The notes under the pieces were generated by a model that searched no databases, was not told the DNA's origin, and was given only the letters and a program-made list of their open reading frames with translations. From a virus, in the IMG/VR virus record IMGVR_UViG_3300025728_000009, positions 27,286 through 91,285 of that record: a DNA stretch of 64,000 nucleotides; one strand, 5' to 3'. Position numbers and translations under genes: made by a program. Below are positions 5,769-59,160 of this stretch, one piece after another (the stretch's first letter is position 1; each line of letters opens with the position of its first letter).

Positions 5769-5797
5769 ATTTTAGACAAAAGAAAAGGGCCTGTCAA
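5769..5797 (-). promoter_or_regulatory. Sigma70-like promoter inside terminator
   Basis: TTGACA (5797-5792), 17 nt, TAAAAT (5774-5769) on the minus strand: a perfect -35 and a 5/6 -10 at ideal spacing. The -35 lies in the loop and 3' arm of the terminator at 5773-5802. It would restart transcription for the gene chain below 5737. Confidence 0.7.
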
Positions 5798-5802
5798 GGC
5801 CC
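5773..5802 (-). terminator. Rho-independent terminator
   Basis: Read on the minus strand, GGGCCT-TGAC-AGGCCC forms a perfect 6-bp GC-rich stem (5802-5787) followed by TTTTCTTTTG. It lies just after the stop codon of the 405-aa nuclease gene and should end that transcript. Confidence 0.8.
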
Positions 5803-5806
5803 AATA

Positions 5807-7024
5807 TCACGCAAGGTTGAAAATTTCTTTAATCTTAGGCTTTTCAAGCACCTCCAAGCTCATGCACTCAAACATCCCACCCTTAAACGGCACCAAAGGG
5901 TTGTAGTGAAACTCCCTGAATTCCTTGTGTAGTTCGGCTTCCATCTCTAAGACTGAAAGATGTTTGTCTTGCACTGTTGACAGGATTTCAACATCGTAGT
6001 ACCTTCCTATCGACCACATCCTTTCCCTCATATTGAAGGATCTACCAATCTTGATAAAAGATTCCTCTTTATTATACAAGTTTATGAGGTATAGATTGTC
6101 ATCTTCGTCTGCACGACCTTCGTATTCACCATACCCGTTATTTACGGCTGAGGATTTATATCTGCAAGACCCACCACAACCCCTACCTCTCAGGAAGTTG
6201 TTAATGGACGTGGAGTTTTCATGCCCTTCTGCACACAACCAATCAAACTTACTTGTCTGCCTGATATCATCAGTGTTGAAACCAATAAATGTAAAGCCTT
6301 GTGCAGTTACAAGGTTATTCATCTTAAGTTCATATTGTGCTGAAGTTAAAGGTGGATTATCTTTACATCGACAAGGTAGATTACCAGCCTTAAGGCTTGC
6401 ATATGAGGCATTAAAAACACCATTGCAAAGACCAGCCTTTGTATACTCATCTTCTTTACAAATAGGACAGCTAACAAACCATCTTTCATACCTACCAGTG
6501 GAACCGGGCACAGGATCTCTTTCAAACGTCGTACCGCTAACAAAGGAGCCTGTAGATAAAAACAAATCAATATAGTGTTCTATAGGTTTTACTTTGTTTT
6601 TAGATATGAGTCCATCAAGACCAACACACCTTTTATTGTCATCTGAGCCGCCTAAGAATGAATTTATCCTCGGAAGAGTTACTACATCATTAGTTCTTAA
6701 GTCTACAGCCTTGATCTTAGTATTAATCTTACCGTTATATTCCCCATCCCAACCTATGAATTTATAATCCCTCTTAATGCACTCCCGTATTACCAATATC
6801 TTATTTTGTTCTTCTGTTAGGTACGGAGTTCTGGCACAAAGACAAGAACATGATCCTTTACTTAGGCTGTGTGCATGAGAGGTAATTGATCCTAGTGGGA
6901 ATAGTTCAGTATCTAAAGAGCACTTACTACAAGAGACAATCCACTTATCTTTCCCTATCTTACTAACTAATGTCATTATTGAATCTCTTACTTCAAACTG
7001 ATCACCTTCATTGCGTACTGTCAT
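5807..7024 (-). CDS. GIY-YIG / T5orf172-like endonuclease
   Basis: A 405-aa protein. The C-terminal ~100 residues (LYLINLYNKEESFIKIGRS onward, with a later Glu in EMEAELHKEF) look like the GIY-YIG-related T5orf172/MUG113 nuclease domain. The N-terminal ~290 residues contain three Cys-rich modules (near SCSKC...CSCLC, SCPICKEDEY...CRCK and CAEGH...CGGSC). The first two are followed by LTxxQ and look like tandem zinc-finger DNA-binding repeats. This architecture fits a homing endonuclease. The gene has its own terminator and a long structured RNA directly upstream, as if the pair had inserted into the small-gene cluster. Target unknown. Confidence 0.65.
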   Translation of the reverse strand: MTVRNEGDQFEVRDSIMTLVSKIGKDKWIVSCSKCSLDTELFPLGSITSHAHSLSKGSCSCLCARTPYLTEEQNKILVIRECIKRDYKFIGWDGEYNGKINTKIKAVDLRTNDVVTLPRINSFLGGSDDNKRCVGLDGLISKNKVKPIEHYIDLFLSTGSFVSGTTFERDPVPGSTGRYERWFVSCPICKEDEYTKAGLCNGVFNASYASLKAGNLPCRCKDNPPLTSAQYELKMNNLVTAQGFTFIGFNTDDIRQTSKFDWLCAEGHENSTSINNFLRGRGCGGSCRYKSSAVNNGYGEYEGRADEDDNLYLINLYNKEESFIKIGRSFNMRERMWSIGRYYDVEILSTVQDKHLSVLEMEAELHKEFREFHYNPLVPFKGGMFECMSLEVLEKPKIKEIFNLA

Positions 7025-7084
7025 ACTTATTCTTTAATTCTCTTATGTATTTAGTTATTATTTATATTAGATTTATATTATTCA

Positions 7085-7490
7085 ACTGAGTTTAGATAAC
7101 TCCAAGCGAGATTACCCCTACCCATAGCCATAAGAGAAACAATATTCTCCCATAAGACTTAGGTAGGGGTCACGCTTGAAATTATCCTCGCTCTTTCCTG
7201 TGAAGCAGCTTTACGCTGTATTCAACTTGAGATGAGAAAAATAGTCTTTCGACTCTACTAATATGCACAGGTACATTTAGTAGCCAAGGAAGGTCTTTAA
7301 TAAGATTACCTTCTCGAATCACTTTTATAGGCTCTTACAGCCCCGCTAACAAGACCTGATTCTTTCGACTAGTCTTTGCTATGTGTTAGCTCCCCGGTTA
7401 GCTTTAAGCTCTGGCTGCCCGTTGCAGTTGTGTCCGCCACCAGAACCGATGACATTCTAATGTGCTGTCGCTTAGAAGAAGGTCATGTAT
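7085..7490 (-). ncRNA. Structured non-coding RNA candidate
   Basis: About 400 nt with no convincing ORF but dense minus-strand secondary structure. A 9-bp stem ACCCCUACC/GGUAGGGGU sits inside CAAGCG/CGCUUG. Other elements are a long hairpin CUACUAA...UUAGUAG, AGUC-GAAA-GACU, CAGC-GUAAA-GCUG, a GCUAAC/GUUAGC stem enclosing AAGAC/GUCUU, and AAGG...CCUU enclosing UCUU/AAGA. AGUCGAAAGA occurs twice. A promoter-like TTGCAA-17-TAATAT (7521-7493) would start transcription near 7486. I found no tmRNA, RNase P, group II domain V or convincing group I core. It precedes the GIY-YIG-like gene. Confidence 0.6.
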
Positions 7491-7492
7491 AA

Positions 7493-7521
7493 ATATTACG
7501 CCTTTATTTCCTCAATTGCAA
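7493..7521 (-). promoter_or_regulatory. Promoter-like site for the ncRNA
   Basis: Minus strand TTGCAA (7521-7516), 17-nt spacer, TAATAT (7498-7493); both hexamers match consensus at 4 of 6 positions. Its placement just upstream of the structured segment is the main support. Confidence 0.4.
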
Positions 7522-12026: not shown

Positions 12027-12668
12027 ATGGCTGAAGATTTAAGCGGAAGAAAATATAATCGTTGGACTATAATTAGCCTTGCAGAGCGGAAAGGAAATCG
12101 GGCATATTGGAATTGTATATGTGATTGTGGGAAAGAAAAAGTAGTCCGTGGGGATCAAATCAAAGATGGTCGCTCACAGTCTTGTGGTTGCCTCAGAGCT
12201 GAACGCTCCTACAGGACACATGGAATGTGGAAGAGTAAGATTTACAGGGTTTGGGGCTCAATGGTTTCAAGAACTACAAATCCAAACGATCCAGCGTGGC
12301 CCTACTACGGTGGAATTGGTTGTGGATTAGACCAAGAGGAATGGAAGCAATTTGAAAATTTCTACAGGGATATGGGAGAAAGCTATAAAGAAGGGTTGAC
12401 TTTAGAACGAGAAGATCCTAAACTTGGTTACTCAAAAGAGAACTGTGTTTGGGAAACATGGAAAGTTCAAAGTTTCAACAAGAAAATGGATAAACGTAAT
12501 AAATCTGGACGTACTGGTGTTGTGCTTATTGAGGCTACTGGTAAATGGAAAGCACGTATAGGTTTTGAAGGTAAAGACATCAATTTAGGTTACTATGCAA
12601 CCTTCGAAGAGGCTTGTGCTGCAAGAGCCGAAGGTGAGCTTAAATATTTTGGAAGAACAAAGGAGTAA
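12027..12668 (+). CDS. HNH homing endonuclease with AP2-like domain
   Basis: A 213-aa protein. An N-terminal Cys module (CICDCG...SCGC, residues about 31-57) is followed by an HNH-like core (YYGGIGC, then a LEREDP...NCVW segment). The C-terminal AP2-like DNA-binding part (SGRTGV, KWKARIGFEGK) ends in KYFGRTKE. It lies between the primase-helicase and polymerase genes. Its final codons AAG GAG form the ribosome site of the polymerase, a neat example of an endonuclease insertion that keeps the downstream gene translated. It is paralogous to the genes at 58462 and, more distantly, 46566. Confidence 0.8.
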   Translation: MAEDLSGRKYNRWTIISLAERKGNRAYWNCICDCGKEKVVRGDQIKDGRSQSCGCLRAERSYRTHGMWKSKIYRVWGSMVSRTTNPNDPAWPYYGGIGCGLDQEEWKQFENFYRDMGESYKEGLTLEREDPKLGYSKENCVWETWKVQSFNKKMDKRNKSGRTGVVLIEATGKWKARIGFEGKDINLGYYATFEEACAARAEGELKYFGRTKE

Positions 12669-17332: not shown

Positions 17333-17581
17333 ATGAAAGAACGTCAATCGCTTTATGATCGTGCATACCAATTGGCTCAAGAAGCAATCACCAACAAAGA
17401 AGATGTAAAAGAGCTTGCTGGTGAATTTACATACGACAAAGAATATAACACGGACGGTTTTGATAAAGCTGAAGTGAAGAATATTGTTAAGGCAGCTCAA
17501 GCAAAAGCTAAGCAAGACAATCTTGCAGAGAAAGTTGAAGAGTTGAATAAACTTCAACAGATTCAGGAAGCTTATAGCTGA
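17333..17581 (+). CDS. Hypothetical charged helical protein
   Basis: An 82-aa protein, almost wholly helical with many Lys and Glu and a coiled-coil-like C-terminus (LAEKVEELNKLQQIQEAY). A TTAGGAGATTCAC ribosome site precedes it, and a terminator follows. Function unknown. Confidence 0.7.
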   Translation: MKERQSLYDRAYQLAQEAITNKEDVKELAGEFTYDKEYNTDGFDKAEVKNIVKAAQAKAKQDNLAEKVEELNKLQQIQEAYS

Positions 17582-25187: not shown

Positions 25188-27356
25188 TTGAAAGTAACAA
25201 AACGAACTGGGGTGTCGGAAGTTTTTGAAGTAGAGAAGATTAAGAAAGTTGTTCATTGGGCGTGTGAGGGTTTGGAGGTCAATCCTCTGGCCCTTGAATC
25301 TAAGTTTGATGAGTTCCTTTTTGATGGAATTAGCTCTAAACAACTTCAAGCCAATATTATTGACAATGCTAAGACTCTAGCAACTCCACAAGAACCTGAC
25401 TGGGTATTTGTTGCTGGTCGTCTTGAGACTATGAATCGTTGGGCTGAAACACGGACTTATGAAATCCCGTTCCTTGAGTTCGTGAAAGAACAAGAAGTGC
25501 TTGGTTTCTGGACTCATGAAATGTTCAAACAATATTCTGATGAGGACATTGAAGAGCTTGGTGAGTACATTGTACAAGAGCGTGACCTTGACCATTCAAT
25601 TGCATCTGTTCTGACAGCGAAGAGTAAATATCTTCTACCTAATGAATGTATCCAACACATGTTCATGGGTAACGCAATGATTATTGCTGGGCCTGAAGAA
25701 CAAGATAAAGTTGGTTTTGCTAAGAAAGTATATGATGCATTGAGCGAACGTAAGATCAGCCTTGCAACCCCTTGGCTTAGTAACCTTCGTAACGCTGGTA
25801 ATATTAGTAGCTGCTTCATTATTTCGGTTGATGATAATATCCATTCGATTTATGACAACCTGAAGAATGCGGCTCTGGTAAGTAAGAATGGTGGTGGACT
25901 AGGTGTGGACCTTGCTCGTGTTCGTTGCCGTGGTAGTAAGTTGATGGGGCAAGAGGGTGGAAGTGGTGGTATTATTGGATGGGTAAAACTGTTTAACGAT
26001 ACAGCAGTCAGTGTGAATCAGGGTGGTAAACGAGCTGGCGCTTTCACCGTAGCTGTGCCTATTTGGCACGGGGATGTGGATGTCTACTTGGATGTACAGA
26101 CTGAAGCTGGTGATCAACGCCTTAAAGCCCATGACATCAAAACTCAAGTTGGTATCTATGACTTGTTCATGGAAACAAAGAATGATTCAACTAAAGAGTG
26201 GTATACATTCTGCCCTTATGAAGTAGAAGAGAAACTCGGTATTCAGTTGTTCTCTGTGTTTGGTGAAGAGTTTAATCAAGCTTATAACACTTGTGTACTT
26301 GCAGCAGATCAAGGGAAGCTCAAGACGGTTCGTAAACACAATGCTAAAGAACTGTGGAAGAAAGTGTTGCGTGTTCAGTTTGAAACAGGGATGCCTTATG
26401 TTGCTTTCTTAGATGAGATCAACAAGCATAATCCAAACAAACATATTGGCAACATCCCTTGTGTAAACCTTTGCACTGAATCGTTTAGTGTTGTGATTCC
26501 AGACAAACTTAGCCATACATGCAACTTGGCAAGTTTGGTCGTTGGTCGTATTACTCTGGAGCAACTGGTAGAGTCTGCAGCACTGGCAACACGGATTCTG
26601 GATAATGGTATTGCGCTGACTAAGGCACCAACGAAAGAGAGTGAAGATCATAATAACCTTCTTCGCACAATTGGTGTTGGGATTCAGGGATATGCTGACC
26701 TAATTGCTCGGGAAAATAAGAGCTTTCTAGACGTTGAGTTCGCAAGCTTGGTGGCAGAGTCAATTGAGTACGGATGCGTCTCTGAGAGTGTAAAACTCGC
26801 TAAAGAACGTGGTCCTTATCCGGCTTTTGAAGGTAGCGAGTGGAGTAATGGTAATCGAGTATCTACTTTCATCAGTAATGCAAGTGGTCGTTACGATTGG
26901 GTAGAACAACAGAACCAGATTGATTTGTTTGGTATTCGGAATAGTCAACTAACTAGCCCAGCACCGAACACAAGCACTTCAATTTTCATGGATGCTGCTG
27001 CTAGTATGATGCCTGTGTACAGTGCCTTCTTTTATGAAGATAACCGTGACGGTTTGAATCCAGTTACATCAATGTACTTGAAAGAGAATCCACTTAGCTA
27101 CGCTCGTGATATTACTAAATTCAAACCTTGGGATTTGACGAAAACAGTTGGTGCAATGCAGAAATGGATTGACACAGGAATCTCAGCAGAGTATGTGATG
27201 GATAAAAACCAAACAGGCTTCAGTGCTAAATGGTTGTGGGATACTCATGAAAGTGCTTGGACCAACAAGAATAAAGCTGTATACTACATCCGCACCGTGA
27301 AGCAAGGTGAACGATTAATTAAAGATGCAGTGGACTGTGTAGGCTGCGCTGGGTGA
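25188..27356 (+). CDS. nrdA: Ribonucleotide reductase large subunit, class I
   Basis: A 722-aa protein with a TTG start behind AAGGGGAATGT. An N-terminal ATP-cone-like region is followed by the catalytic barrel: C209 (NISSC), N427-L-C429-T-E431 for the thiyl radical site, a Cys in SHTCNLASL, a YY pair in AVYYIRT for radical transfer, and a C-terminal CVGC (717-720) for re-reduction. All key residues of a class Ia enzyme are present. It forms the holoenzyme with the product of the next gene. Confidence 0.95.
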   Translation: MKVTKRTGVSEVFEVEKIKKVVHWACEGLEVNPLALESKFDEFLFDGISSKQLQANIIDNAKTLATPQEPDWVFVAGRLETMNRWAETRTYEIPFLEFVKEQEVLGFWTHEMFKQYSDEDIEELGEYIVQERDLDHSIASVLTAKSKYLLPNECIQHMFMGNAMIIAGPEEQDKVGFAKKVYDALSERKISLATPWLSNLRNAGNISSCFIISVDDNIHSIYDNLKNAALVSKNGGGLGVDLARVRCRGSKLMGQEGGSGGIIGWVKLFNDTAVSVNQGGKRAGAFTVAVPIWHGDVDVYLDVQTEAGDQRLKAHDIKTQVGIYDLFMETKNDSTKEWYTFCPYEVEEKLGIQLFSVFGEEFNQAYNTCVLAADQGKLKTVRKHNAKELWKKVLRVQFETGMPYVAFLDEINKHNPNKHIGNIPCVNLCTESFSVVIPDKLSHTCNLASLVVGRITLEQLVESAALATRILDNGIALTKAPTKESEDHNNLLRTIGVGIQGYADLIARENKSFLDVEFASLVAESIEYGCVSESVKLAKERGPYPAFEGSEWSNGNRVSTFISNASGRYDWVEQQNQIDLFGIRNSQLTSPAPNTSTSIFMDAAASMMPVYSAFFYEDNRDGLNPVTSMYLKENPLSYARDITKFKPWDLTKTVGAMQKWIDTGISAEYVMDKNQTGFSAKWLWDTHESAWTNKNKAVYYIRTVKQGERLIKDAVDCVGCAG

Positions 27357-28484: not shown

Positions 28485-30464
28485 ATGGAATTCAAACGCT
28501 TCAGTTCACTAGAGAATAGCTACCGTCAGAACCTCATTGACAAAGTTCAATATGAAGGTAAAGATGGTGGTCTGTGGATGGCTACCGAAAAGCTACACGG
28601 CTGCTTTCAGGATAAGACCAAAGTAACTCTACCTGATGGCAGTTATAAGACTATTCAAGAAATTGTAGAGTCCAAATACAGTGGTGAGGTTCTGGGTGTA
28701 GATAAAGAAGGCAAGCTTGTCCCAACCAAAGTTGTTAACTGGTATGAAAACGGGAATACAACTGAGTGGCTTAAAGTAACCTTCCAGACTTATGGTGGTA
28801 AGGGCGGTAACAGTCGTGCTGTAAAATGTACACCAAACCATAAGTTCTTTTCTCAAGGACAATATCTACCAATGTCGGAGTTGGTTGTTGGAGACTCTGT
28901 GGAGTACACCTATTCCGGTTGCTCTTTGAGTTTTATTCAAGAGCAAGTTCTCATTGGTAAGATGCTAGGAGATGGTTCTCTGACAAACTCCTCTGTGGCT
29001 TTTGGTCATAAAGAGTTGCACGAGGACTATACTGATTTTACCCTTAAATGTCTTGGTTCCTTGGCAGGTAAACGTCAGGCTGATACAATGTCGGGATATG
29101 GCACAACCATCAGCCGTGGTCGTAGTATCTCTACAGAAGAAATTGATAAGCTGTTTGAATCGTGGAGTAAGTCTGTTGGTCATGTGCCCAAACTCACTTT
29201 GACGCCAATTAGTCTTGCTTTCTGGTACTTGGATGATGGCAGTGTTTGCTTGAATGACAATCAGAAACCTCGTGCAAGCTTTGCTACCTGTGGTTTTACA
29301 AAAGAGTCTTGTCTTAACTTGAAAGCAAGCCTTGCAAATCTGGGTATTACTTCAGAAGTGAATGGCGAAGAGGGGCGTTTGAGGGTTACTTTGTCAGCAG
29401 ACTCAACAGATTTGTTGTTCTCTTATATTTGCAACTTGGTTCCTGAATCTATGCAGTACAAGTTGCCCCCACAGTTTAGAATTCAAGGGTCTGGTGCAGG
29501 TTTTGTGGAACAAGCTACCCACGATTTCACATCTCGTAAATCTTATGCTGTTATTAAAAGTATTGAACAAGTCTGTGAAGATAAACAGCGGTACGATATC
29601 GAGACTGAAACTCACAACTACTTTGCCAACAATCTGCACGTACATAATTGTAACTTTAGCTTCTGGTGTGATGGTAAGGAAGTAAAGTTTGCATCTCGTA
29701 CACAGTTTGTTGATGGGACATTCTTTAATTGTCAAGCCGTTATGAATCAGTATTCCCAAGGCGTACTTGATGGATTCCCATACTTCGCTAAAGAAGGTCA
29801 GATACTGGTAATTTATGGGGAGTTGTTTGGTGGTAACATTCAGAAAGAAGTAGAGTACGGAGAGAAAGACTTTAAAGCTTTCGATGTTGTAATTGACGGA
29901 CAACCCGTTCAAAAACAATCGGCAATTAATATTGCAGACTCTTGTGGTATTGAGTTTGTCCCTGTCATCCATACTGGTACATTAGCCGAGTGTTTAACTC
30001 TGTCAAACACGTTTAAGTCCACATTGACACCAGAGGGTTACAAAGAAGAGAACACGTCTGAAGGCTTGGTAATTGAGCCTGTAGAGCCTAATTGGTTTAA
30101 CAATGGAAGTCGTATCTACTTCAAAAATAAGACAGAAGGGTTTAGTGAGAAGAAACGTAAACCAAAAGAACATATTGTGTTTGAGTTGTCTGATGAAGAA
30201 TCAGAGTTGATGAATGAGCTTCTGACTTACAACACTATTCAACGTGTGTCTAATGTAATCAGCAAGATTGGTCAAGTAACCAATAAAGACTTTGGTAAGA
30301 TTCTTGGCCTCACTACACAAGACTTGCTTGAAGAGTTCACCAAGGAAACTGAACAAGATCCTAAGCAGATTGCTGAAAGTAATTGGAAATCTTTCCTGAA
30401 GCTGCTACAATCAGAAGTAGGTAAAGAGGTTCGTAGTCAATTTGTTGTGGCTTTGGAGGATTGA
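28485..30464 (+). CDS. Rnl2-type RNA ligase containing an intein
   Basis: A 659-aa precursor. Excising residues 40-388 as an intein gives a 310-aa ligase. The extein junction reads TEKLHG/CNFSFW, recreating nucleotidyltransferase motif I (KxHGxN) with Lys36 as the predicted AMP-binding residue. Later motifs include FASRTQFVDG, VIYGELFGG and EGLVIEPVE. Rnl2-type enzymes seal nicked duplex RNA and could repair cleaved host tRNA. TAGGAGAAATATT precedes the ATG. Confidence 0.9.
   Translation: MEFKRFSSLENSYRQNLIDKVQYEGKDGGLWMATEKLHGCFQDKTKVTLPDGSYKTIQEIVESKYSGEVLGVDKEGKLVPTKVVNWYENGNTTEWLKVTFQTYGGKGGNSRAVKCTPNHKFFSQGQYLPMSELVVGDSVEYTYSGCSLSFIQEQVLIGKMLGDGSLTNSSVAFGHKELHEDYTDFTLKCLGSLAGKRQADTMSGYGTTISRGRSISTEEIDKLFESWSKSVGHVPKLTLTPISLAFWYLDDGSVCLNDNQKPRASFATCGFTKESCLNLKASLANLGITSEVNGEEGRLRVTLSADSTDLLFSYICNLVPESMQYKLPPQFRIQGSGAGFVEQATHDFTSRKSYAVIKSIEQVCEDKQRYDIETETHNYFANNLHVHNCNFSFWCDGKEVKFASRTQFVDGTFFNCQAVMNQYSQGVLDGFPYFAKEGQILVIYGELFGGNIQKEVEYGEKDFKAFDVVIDGQPVQKQSAINIADSCGIEFVPVIHTGTLAECLTLSNTFKSTLTPEGYKEENTSEGLVIEPVEPNWFNNGSRIYFKNKTEGFSEKKRKPKEHIVFELSDEESELMNELLTYNTIQRVSNVISKIGQVTNKDFGKILGLTTQDLLEEFTKETEQDPKQIAESNWKSFLKLLQSEVGKEVRSQFVVALED
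28602..29648 (+). mobile_element. LAGLIDADG intein in RNA ligase
   Basis: 349 residues from Cys40 to Asn388. The splicing blocks are CFQDKTKV (block A), CTPNHKFF (block B) and YFANNLHVHN before Cys+1 (blocks F/G, penultimate His and terminal Asn). Between them lies a homing endonuclease with two LAGLIDADG-like motifs (IGKMLGDGSL and FWYLDDGSV). All expected splicing residues are intact. The insertion is three residues after the catalytic lysine. Confidence 0.9.
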
Positions 30465-46565: not shown

Positions 46566-47492
46566 CTAAGTTGTTTGGGAATCATCCCTTGTCGTTTTGT
46601 TGGGGCGATCCCCGTATATCTCTTCAGAAACATTATCGTATGCAAGGGCTGCTTCTAACTCTGTTTCAAATCTTTTCTGTAGGTACACGATACCATTACG
46701 GTTAATTCGGGCCATCCACTTATCACGCTCTTTATCATAATAAACGCCCTTATAGATTGATGTACAATCTTGAGGTTTAGATTTATTATGATTACCTATA
46801 TCTCGATTAACCCAACGACAATTATCTTTGCAGTAATTACCATCAAAGTCTATACGGTCAATATCAGCACCTTCAAACCAACCTTCAGACATGTCCAACC
46901 AGAAACCTTCAAAAGTCTCCCAATCTATGGGGTAAGAAATCCCACGTTCTCCATACCTATTCCATCGAGAATTGTTTGGGTTGGTGCATCTGTCCTTAAG
47001 TCCCTGCCAAGAGTAGTAGGCTCCTGTACCAGACATTCCGTGAGTAGTCACCAGACCGGAAACTATCTCTTTTTGCAGGCAACCGCACGATTTGGTATTT
47101 CCAGAAACCAATGCCTGTTGTCTTACGCTGAACTGTGAGGACTCCCCGCAAGAACAGATAACCAGAGTCATGTTCCTTGGTGTCTTGCCATTCTCATAGA
47201 ACATGCCGAGATTTTCCAAAACCTCCAACCTACCGTATACATCCCCAACACTCAAATCATTAGTATTTTTAAGTTTTGTCATTTCCCGCTGGTAACAACC
47301 ACAGGAGAAACTAGGTTTAGTTGGGGAGGTTAGAGCTGCGGCCCTGAGAACAGATATGGTTCCGCAATCACAGGTGCACTCTACGAACTTTGCTTTTGAC
47401 CCGTTGGGAAAAGTTTTGTAGAAAACATCTGAGGTAACTTCCCACCTATTGTACTTGTCACCTATATTAATTTGGATAGCTTTAGTTGACAT
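46566..47492 (-). CDS. HNH homing endonuclease with AP2-like domain
   Basis: A 308-aa protein with two N-terminal Cys modules (CTCDCG...SCGC and CSCGESS...SCGC), an HNH-like core (RWNRYGERGISYP, IDRIDFDGNY, NCRWVN) and a C-terminal AP2-like part (SIYKGVYYDKERDKWMARIN). It lies between the sheath and tube genes with its own promoter (47525-47553). It is a free-standing mobile element related to the genes at 12027 and 58462, with one additional zinc module. Confidence 0.8.
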   Translation of the reverse strand: MSTKAIQINIGDKYNRWEVTSDVFYKTFPNGSKAKFVECTCDCGTISVLRAAALTSPTKPSFSCGCYQREMTKLKNTNDLSVGDVYGRLEVLENLGMFYENGKTPRNMTLVICSCGESSQFSVRQQALVSGNTKSCGCLQKEIVSGLVTTHGMSGTGAYYSWQGLKDRCTNPNNSRWNRYGERGISYPIDWETFEGFWLDMSEGWFEGADIDRIDFDGNYCKDNCRWVNRDIGNHNKSKPQDCTSIYKGVYYDKERDKWMARINRNGIVYLQKRFETELEAALAYDNVSEEIYGDRPNKTTRDDSQTT

Positions 47493-56537: not shown

Positions 56538-58465
56538 TTAGCGATTAAATGGATTTTTAGTTGAGAGGTCAGCAGTAACTAGACCACCAAGGAAGTTTCC
56601 GATATGTATCTTTTGAGCCAACGTAATGAAAGCATCACTAGTTGCGTCAACTTGCATTATCTTAAATAAGATTCGTTAATTCTTATTCAGCCTCTCGGCT
56701 GCTATACATCGCTGTATAGAGGAGACTATCTCTTCAAACAAAATTGTTTGCCCACTGCTTCGCTTCACTTGAAGCTACTCTACTCACTTCCATCTTACAG
56801 ATGTGTTTTCGATAGTCGTTACACGTTCTCATTTCTGAGCTTCGCTCGGTATTGTCTCAAAGAGAGGTTCACCGAATTCAATGGGTTTATAGACGACCAA
56901 TATTTAAAAAATCGTCTTTAATATTTCGACTTCCGTCAAAGCCTTCCAGTTCAAAAAAGTAAGCTTCGTTCCAAGGGCCTTCAACATAGTCTACAAGTCC
57001 GGCTTCAGCAGCAGATGCAAAAGGCTGGAATCTTGTTACTTTAGATTTATTTGAGGGACGCATTCTGGAAGAGAAGCCTTCCTCAATCAATTCTCTAATC
57101 ATCATTTGACCAGCAGCTTTACCAGCTTGACCGGGCTCTTGAGGCAGAATGATTTGAGTGTTTTCAGGATCATCTTTTGCTGTTTGTATAATCCTCTGCA
57201 TCACCTCACCGAAGCGTGCTCGGAATCTAACAGAGTCACAAACTATGTACCTGCCTTGTTTTGTCTTGCCAATCAGTACACCAGCCGTCCAGTCAGGATT
57301 AGGCAGGCTATCTGATGGCAATGAGCCAGCTATATCCCAAGCCCTGCAATATGAAACAATCTGCTGTTCATGTTCTCTAACTGGCGTCACGAACTCACGT
57401 TTAAAGAAGCCGCTGGAAGATTCTCGCACAAACCAGTTACCTTCCAAGAGCCGCTGACGCTCGACTCCACGAAGTCCTTTCAGCCAACTAACATATTTTG
57501 GGTTAACTTCTTGAACAATTTTGTTATCGTAAACGTTGGCACTAATAAAGGTAAAAGACAGAGCATCTTTTTCTTCAATACCGTACTCTTCCCAAAGCTG
57601 TTGTTTTGTATCTCCCCAAACAAAGTCACCATCCATAAAGGAAAAGTAACGAATAATTCCGTCTTTATCTCTATCTGGTGTTCCGTCTGCTTTCAAATAA
57701 GGCTCAACCCACTTTCGTAGCCCATGATCGGCTGATGGGTTGCATGTGATTTTTAGGTGGGGTTTTACTGAAGGACAAGATGGGTTACGCATACGAGACA
57801 TGATATATTGAATCATGTACATCGTAAATTGAGTTCCCTCATCTATATAGAAAAGATTTGCTTCACTACCTTGCCAGTTTACATCGGCTTGGTCGTTCTC
57901 AAAGTGCTTAAGATAAATCTCAGCGCCTGATTTATGAAAAACAAACTTACCATCTTTAGCTCGCCAAGTATATTCATCTGAATTATAAGCTTGGTTAAAA
58001 ATCCTTCGACACTTCGTCAACAACCCACCGGGACCATTTAGTTGGGGAGTTGTTCGACGAGTCATTACGCCAATAAAATTTGGAATGTCTGTATACTTCA
58101 GAAAATCAATTACTCCGATTTCTGACTTACCAGAACCTGCTGCCATTAAGTTATAGAGTTCGTTACACTCTCTTCGCTCTCGCAAAGGATCGGACTATAT
58201 CTTCTACTTTCGTAGCCCCCCGTTTCGATTGCACTTGCAACCTACTCGCCTACATTCATCAGCGTTAGTCTCTACACGTTACTTATAAATAAGTCTTCGC
58301 TCGGTATTGCCCACGTCTTTACGTTTGGGTTTCACCGAATTAGAGGGGTTTTAATTGGAGGCGCTAAAGTTCACCACCAAACAGCGTCACGTCAGCTTCT
58401 GACACACAGTACATATGCTGACGTTTTCCGCAGGGTCCGGGTAGCACCTTTTCAGGTTCACTCAT
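56538..58465 (-). CDS. terL: Terminase large subunit, split by two group I introns
   Basis: Three exons on the minus strand: 58465-58367, 58143-56911 and 56654-56538. Joined, they encode 482 aa with no frameshift. Exon 1 ends FGGEL and exon 2 begins AAGSGKS, completing Walker A. Exon 2 has the Walker B-like NLFYIDEGT and nuclease aspartate in RAWDIAGS. Exon 2 ends KDD and exon 3 starts QVDA, giving the C-terminal KDDQVDA nuclease motif. The start ATG overlaps the preceding HNH stop (ATGA). N-terminal QHMY supplies an adenine-contact Gln. Without splicing, the ATPase and nuclease domains are broken. Confidence 0.9.
56655..56910 (-). mobile_element. Group I intron 2 in terminase gene
   Basis: A 256-nt ORF-less intron between KDD and QVDA. 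The minus-strand core includes AATTCGGTGAA and AATACCGAGCGAAG (P4/P6 side), CTCA-GAAA-TGAG, a P7 pair ACGACTATC / GATAGTC, and peripheral hairpins CTATACA-GCGA-TGTATAG and CAGCC-GAGA-GGCTG. The last base is G (AATG/CAA), as expected. It shares its core with intron 1. Confidence 0.85.
58144..58366 (-). mobile_element. Group I intron 1 in terminase gene
   Basis: A 223-nt ORF-less intron within the Walker A coding region (GAA CTT / GCA GCA). Minus-strand core: AATTCGGTGAA...AATACCGAGCGAAG, P7 pair GAGACTAAC / ATATAGTC, P8 CTAC-GAAA-GTAG immediately before AGAAGATATAGTCC. It follows a U and ends in G. The nearest endonuclease gene lies only about 96 nt upstream of it. Confidence 0.9.
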
Positions 58466-59160
58466 TCTTTATTCCGTCCGAAATATTTAATCTCAGCGGC
58501 TTCACGAGCTTTAACTGCTTCTTCAAAAGTATCAAACCTTCCAAGACCAATTACTTCGCCCATGTATCCGATTTGAGAAGTCCATTTACCACGTTCTTCA
58601 CTCCAACCAACTCCAGTTCTACCTGATGTATTGTGGGATTTGATTCGTGTGTTATATGACTGGTTACTCTTAGTGTCCCACTTGCAATTCTCTGGAGAAT
58701 AGTCTTCGTTAACTTCAATTCGTTCAAGAGTAAGACCGTTACATGGTCCCATATCTTCGTAGAAGTTAATAAAGCCTTGAGGGGCAGCTTCTAACCAACG
58801 CTCACAAATACCAATTCCTCGACCACCGTAGTAATCAAATCCTGTATCGTTTGGGTTGGTACATCTGTTTAACATTTCTCGGTGTGACCTGTATTCAGGA
58901 CTTTTCACCATCCCATGCTTTGTAATTTTATCTTCAAGGTAGCAACCACAAGATAATGTGTGATTCCTAAGAAGATTACTTTGCTGTACTATAAGAGTAT
59001 TACCGCACTCACAAGCACAGAGCCACAAACCCTTACGTTGGCCAGATGGCTGAACTTTCCAACCATCAAAGTCTAGTACGGTAAGTCTCTCAAACACTTG
59101 ACCAGTCAAATCTTTTCTTGGTCTTTCCAGCAAAGGTCTTACGTTAACTACTTCATTCAT
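58462..59160 (-). CDS. HNH homing endonuclease with AP2-like domain
   Basis: A 232-aa protein: N-terminal Cys module (CACECG...SCGC), HNH-like core (YYGGRGIGICERW, LERIEVNEDY, NCKWD) and a C-terminal AP2-like part (SGRTGVGWSEERGKWTSQIG) ending KYFGRNKE. The latter is strikingly like the gene at 12027 (KYFGRTKE). Its stop overlaps the terL start, and the ORF-less intron 1 begins 96 nt downstream, so it may be the endonuclease that mobilises that intron in trans. That is inference. Confidence 0.8.
   Translation of the reverse strand: MNEVVNVRPLLERPRKDLTGQVFERLTVLDFDGWKVQPSGQRKGLWLCACECGNTLIVQQSNLLRNHTLSCGCYLEDKITKHGMVKSPEYRSHREMLNRCTNPNDTGFDYYGGRGIGICERWLEAAPQGFINFYEDMGPCNGLTLERIEVNEDYSPENCKWDTKSNQSYNTRIKSHNTSGRTGVGWSEERGKWTSQIGYMGEVIGLGRFDTFEEAVKAREAAEIKYFGRNKE

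Follow-up and report, generated by a model that had tools for sequence, protein, structure and literature searches.

What is encoded by about 400 nt of DNA that contain no credible open reading frame (ORF), fold strongly when read on the minus strand and lie directly in front of a nuclease gene? The question arises in a 64,000-nt stretch (the window; positions 27,286 to 91,285) of the 91-kb virus record IMGVR_UViG_3300025728_000009. A first-pass annotation, made from the sequence alone, had proposed a large structured noncoding RNA at 7085-7490 and was correct in both coordinates and strand; we predict that the RNA spans 7079..7490 on the minus strand, with the 5′ end deduced from the -10 box and the 3′ end placed at the outer copy of a short repeat, X, which is described below. 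The window RNA very probably belongs, as a divergent member, to an unnamed family of structured phage RNAs, and this family and its coupled repeat are new.

The absence of a credible ORF was borne out, no ORF longer than ~48 aa crossing the region, and so was the claim of stable minus-strand structure. The minimum free energy of the minus strand was -135 kcal/mol, whereas 100 shuffled sequences averaged -105.7 (sd 5.9; z = -4.96) and none of them went as low; the plus strand gave a z of -2.4. As had also been noted, no known RNA family was recognised. An Rfam covariance-model scan returned nothing at the gathering threshold and only chance-level matches up to an E-value of 5, the best of which, mir-3070 (E 0.03), fell far under its own cut-off and was discarded along with DUF3800-XI, SNORA2 and SCARNA18; the GOLLD, ROOL and HEARO models gave no match up to that value. 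Nor did the group I intron P3-P8 core (RF00028) match the RNA, and the two group I introns detected by the same scan elsewhere in the window (56702-56947 and 58171-58382, minus strand; 66 and 67 bits), both of which flank or interrupt an apparent terminase gene, served as a useful positive control. Matches obtained by blastn to phiKZ-like phages and Serratia phage KNP4 were short, lay within coding sequence and were set aside.

A conserved RNA family with a coupled repeat

Relatives were sought in phage, plasmid and IMG/VR sequences and in one bacterial collection. Phages with a shared replicative helicase include L012 and its near copies, and the L012 RNA matched mostly unannotated sequence in Pseudomonas phages. 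The RNAs recovered in this way form a family of conserved structured RNAs of ~330-450 nt, made up of a P1 domain, middle hairpins, an inner X, a P6 domain and an outer X, and occur in Otagovirus, Pakpunavirus, KIL-type and other Pseudomonas phages. When the member from phage ITTPL was used as query, 179 phage records were matched, 124 of them across 80% or more of the query (RefSeq and GenBank duplicates being counted). The core shared in the alignment comprises, among other elements, P1, AGAGANAUGUC, a small hairpin, CACUCACCGG, P1′ and AUGAAGAGG. Two RNAs per genome are common, the second copy lying near 54 kb in Pakpunaviruses and near 60 kb in Otagoviruses. The copies examined in isolate genomes were mostly found at divergent gene junctions with promoters of their own; a tRNA cluster usually begins right after the first copy. 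The RNA-seq-annotated record of PAK_P4 carries a divergent promoter pair at the locus, with putative promoter_11 (89135-89162 of the record) just upstream of an RNA copy and no noncoding RNA marked. Well over a hundred records of Pakpunavirus and Otagovirus contain a structured RNA that is both unannotated and missing from Rfam, and no description of it was found in the papers retrieved, which covered the literature in part. Two groups of candidates were rejected as members: three bacterial-genome matches to the core pattern, where about three were expected by chance and P1 was not seen, and the PAK_P3 small RNAs, since no family core was present in the 50 kb examined.

Structural conservation among homologues, on which the first-pass annotation had made its proposal depend, was examined, and the structure proved to be conserved, with covariation in both P1 and P6. 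P1 is a 7-bp helix which, read without recourse to an alignment, was paired in 13/13 distinct variants except for one terminal U-U, with as many as five pair types per position. In P6, 13 of the 23 pairs showed double changes and 94.6% of cells were able to pair; the covariation score was reached by 0/500 shuffles and collapsed in slid controls. The internal motif of P6, AGGC..GUAUG, is invariant in the family.

The second hallmark of the family is X itself, a variable sequence of 7-13 nt that occurs twice in each RNA, as direct repeats that flank P6 and lie 76-170 nt apart. Among 17 RNAs, the inner and outer copies of the same RNA matched over 7-13 nt, compared with 5.0 on average between different RNAs, and the observed sum was equalled by none of 100,000 permutations, in which the rows are partly non-independent, some of the RNAs being close relatives, and one row (L065b) used the wrong outer site, with the sole effect of weakening the result. 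Close relatives change both copies in parallel (AGCGTC/AGTGTC/AGCTTC in one series, ATCTAC/ATCTGC in another). Each X is preceded by a conserved CUCA/CUNA, and the inner X often forms the loop of a hairpin with a CUC(A)..(U)GAG stem, as the outer X sometimes does (CUA..UAG). In L079 and L080, both second copies from Pakpunavirus, the inner X region contains a second ATCTGCAT in a TATACATATATGTA-like insertion, which L087 does not have. Two segments that drift and nevertheless continue to match constitute an unusual evolutionary signature, and one that demands a mechanism.

The window RNA as a probable divergent member

Membership of the window RNA is supported by its promoter and 5′ hairpin, which are common to the window and two members, L012 and L033, and by the placing of P1 and X. 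The promoter-like sequence TTGCAA-17-TAATAT (7493..7521, minus strand) lies directly upstream of the RNA; with 8/12 consensus matches it is a candidate below the scan threshold, and L012 and L033 have identical hexamers and spacing, while Otagovirus members have TTGACG-17-TAGTAT at the promoter position. The 5′ hairpin (7449..7486, minus strand), closed by a GNRA tetraloop (GACA), is kept in both relatives. The P1 helix, GGTTCTGG/CCAGAGC (7408..7447, minus strand; 7447-7440 pairing with 7414-7408), occupies the position that P1 has in the family and is followed by UUAAA. The inner X reads CUCAA-GUUGAAUA (7219..7231, minus strand) and the outer X CUCA-GUUGAAUA (7079..7090, minus strand), so that AGUUGAAUA is repeated exactly at 7227-7219 and 7087-7079, each time behind the CUCA lead of the family. 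A 9-nt repeat within 400 nt would be insignificant alone; it counts here because of its place and its lead sequence.

Between the X copies, the P6 domain (7088..7193, minus strand), defined by folding and by the P6 model, consists of a long stem of ~15 bp plus inner helices. The 9-bp stem that had earlier been thought to close the whole RNA was not supported, as the long stem closes the 3′ domain (7193-7088) only. The P6 internal loop, CCUAAG (7163-7158)/UAUGG (7126-7122), resembles an 11-nt GAAA receptor, and we take it to be the canonical one. The RNA also contains GAAA loops, the tetraloop element AGUCGAAAGA being present twice as first described: copy 1 (7361..7370, minus strand), a tetraloop candidate identified by sequence, and copy 2 (7254-7245), which lies in a GAGUC-GAAA-GACU hairpin (7243..7255, minus strand). 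We infer that the latter hairpin, as a candidate partner, may dock into the P6 receptor.

The covariance models were less decisive. P6 model R2 had its best local match at 7183-7097 on the minus strand (12.4 bits, E 0.019 for 901 bases), exactly where P6 lies, which speaks for membership, but this result is weak alone and was not recovered in a wider scan, and the 5′-domain model R1 found no significant match in the window RNA; both negatives weigh against membership. The equally far diverged L033 was matched by R1 with an E-value of 0.001 at the right register and gave its best local match to the P6 model at E 0.015.

At the same locus, L012 retains the window promoter and first RNA hairpin at 87% identity over 114 nt, and both the rest of its RNA and its CapR nuclease have diverged; its single-sequence fold is modest (z -1.86). 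L033, found by a pattern search on the 5′ hairpin, is 82% identical to the window over 100 nt and has the same 5′ end and ~450 nt of noncoding RNA. Pattern matches in L039-L041 and L049 fell within protein genes and were rejected. Other genes occupy this locus in L009, L010 and L030. In L009 (5138-6421, 427 aa) and L030 (4514-5854, 446 aa), the orthologous region encodes, on the minus strand, large proteins without a Pfam match that are alike in a motif (EIDFSNLHYRL/ELDYSANHPHI).

The neighbouring nuclease gene

The gene behind the window RNA (5807..7024, minus strand) begins 55 nt past the last conserved RNA element and encodes a predicted 405-aa homing endonuclease with CapR zinc-finger repeats (Pfam, 1.1e-34) and a C-terminal T5orf172 GIY-YIG domain (8e-4; 20.3 bits, barely over the cut-off of 20), which was assigned to PHROG 681 endonuclease (2e-65). 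The terminator scan placed an intrinsic-terminator-like hairpin after it (5787..5802, minus strand). Domains and hairpin agree with the initial description of an RNA directly 5′ of a 405-aa GIY-YIG-type nuclease gene with its own terminator. L012 and L033 have a similar hairpin with a TTTTCTTTTG tail, which comes after the nuclease in the former and at a greater distance downstream in the latter. The protein has both domains of the freestanding T5orf172/CapR homing endonucleases of ICP1 and Vibrio phages (PHROG 681), with which it shares ~32-38% identity; the four such genes examined in Vibrio phages lie beside other genes with short upstream gaps and no such RNA. A direct search of IMG/VR for relatives of the protein returned none.

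The idea that the RNA and the nuclease make up a single mobile module was not supported, since most family RNAs are without a nuclease and the type of nuclease varies. A CapR/T5orf172 nuclease follows the RNA in the window and in L012; in SYP the CapR protein behind the RNA has no detected GIY-YIG domain; in L033 the RNA is followed by a 126-aa homing-endonuclease-like protein, unrelated to the window nuclease, with GIY-YIG-like sequence (PHROG 314, E 9e-7); and in KIL1 it is followed by an HNH nuclease. In Otagovirus a small zinc-ribbon-like protein and no nuclease lies behind the RNA, at a second copy DUF4326 is found instead of a nuclease, and no GIY-YIG gene lies beside Otagovirus or Pakpunavirus RNAs. 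These facts, together with CapR relatives that occur elsewhere without the RNA, argue against an obligate RNA-nuclease module. CapR has been described as a zinc finger with which homing endonucleases bind DNA (PMC10448857), and RNA guidance is thus not needed. The nuclease is probably a separate selfish homing endonuclease, a hitchhiker settled downstream of the RNA, and the position next to the RNA is probably a preferred slot in which homing genes settle beside a conserved element. This suggests that homing endonucleases may flag important noncoding elements.

Elsewhere in the window, HNH/AP2-type homing-endonuclease-like ORFs with a CxCDCG..SCGC-like motif were seen in structural and replication regions (12027-12668, 46566-47492 and 58462-59160), and a 659-aa ORF on the plus strand (28485-30464) has an intein-like start (CFQDKTKVTLPDGSYKTIQEI) within an apparent RNA ligase.

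Possible function and known systems

Why should two copies of X remain identical while their sequence drifts? We tentatively propose, on sequence comparison, that this identity may let the RNA pair with its own template DNA in an R-loop that primes replication or controls the downstream operon. The folded RNA would display the inner X, which, being identical to the outer X, would be complementary to the template strand some 100-140 bp downstream; once the polymerase had passed the outer X, the inner X would pair with that template and anchor an R-loop, much like the persistent hybrid of ColE1 RNA II, and the anchored RNA could then prime phage DNA replication or control the downstream operon. 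As the inner X would have to pair with the template of the outer X, identity of the copies would be selected while the sequence drifts. A third segment of the RNA complementary to X was found at no consistent place across members (the pairing of GCUGAG with the outer X suggested by alifold failed in other members), and reverse complements of the central X 9-mers of phiPsa374 (AGCGTCATG, GCGTCATGA) and ITTPL (ATCTGCATG) are absent from those genomes, so that the obvious partner left for X is the template of the RNA itself. In ITTPL, phiPsa374 and the window's record, cumulative GC skew also reaches a local minimum close to the RNA loci. Origins of replication are often located near such minima and at divergent gene junctions. 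With still greater reserve, these RNAs could be regarded as a new class of phage RNA that would recognise its own template by way of a duplicated, drifting sequence, a programmed R-loop starting replication or gating the operon.

Several points weigh against pairing with the template. Gene orientation also yields GC-skew minima, a hybrid that has to persist would be short at 7-13 bp, and in L050, L057 and SYP the outer X abuts a ribosome-binding site, which opens alternatives at the level of translation. Furthermore, AGTTGAATA, the complement of the X target strand, occurs on the plus strand of the window at 17541, 35598, 42072 and 45954, four times against ~0.3 expected. These four sites may be trans sites or the chance product of AT-rich sequence, and their presence on the opposite strand leaves room for a partner in trans in the window's record. 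Such a partner, whether a protein dimer, a host transcript or a second RNA of the phage, would be bound by both X copies, the RNA acting, for example, as a sponge or two-site clamp. The display of X in loops would fit this rather unlikely alternative, but several X types exist among P. syringae phages, and a conserved host partner is improbable where X differs between phages of one host species; the missing reverse complements in ITTPL and phiPsa374 likewise speak against it.

Also unlikely, in our view, is a 5′ leader that modifies RNA polymerase in the manner of processive antitermination (HK022 put or EAR), acting on the tRNA and other operons that it heads. The RNAs do have their own promoter and stand at the 5′ start of operons that run rightward, in many cases ahead of tRNA clusters, but the coupled X copies would be left unexplained and no tRNAs follow the window RNA. 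The family RNA is, moreover, far larger than put. Quite improbable is a self-splicing or self-cleaving intron-like ribozyme, with the X copies as reaction sites and the P6 domain removed. Its large fold, GNRA loops, receptor-like motif, conserved CUCA/CUNA before X and, as with introns, recurrent homing endonuclease neighbours would be in keeping with this, but there is no group I or II match, even though the scan detected both group I introns of the window, no interrupted gene and no internal guide complementary to X. Finally, that the RNA guides or regulates the adjoining GIY-YIG nuclease, with X as guide and the flank as target, is highly improbable: nuclease genes do lie directly behind the RNA in the window, L012, L033, SYP and KIL1, and the outer X adjoins the 3′ end of the RNA, but besides the distribution of nucleases described above, X changes in place during vertical descent while the downstream gene stays unchanged.

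Among known systems, RNAs of HEARO/IscB and other RNA-guided nucleases also lie directly 5′ of a nuclease gene, but the window RNA has neither an Rfam match nor an adjacent HNH/RuvC effector, and the family RNA usually has no nuclease. Group I introns with GIY-YIG genes likewise combine a structured RNA with GNRA loops and a nearby homing endonuclease; they differ in that the window RNA lacks an RF00028 match, a guide complementary to X and visible exons. GOLLD and ROOL, two kinds of large, ornate RNA without a known function, come from phages and are often encoded next to tRNA islands (PMC12286853). They resemble the family in context, as large phage RNAs often near tRNAs; the family differs in length and sequence and in having no Rfam match, and coupled X copies are not among the GOLLD and ROOL features described in the literature retrieved. 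If X does pair with template DNA, the family would provide an RNA-primed origin or an R-loop switch for large virulent phages, for whose origins no description was found in the literature retrieved. In ColE1, the structured transcript RNA II opens the origin through an RNA-DNA hybrid and primes replication (PMC5043065). The two differ in being of plasmid and phage, in having no sequence relation and in that no antisense RNA I was found for the family RNA, but the likeness that we propose is that of a structured transcript which would pair, downstream of the promoter, with the DNA template that it is copied from.
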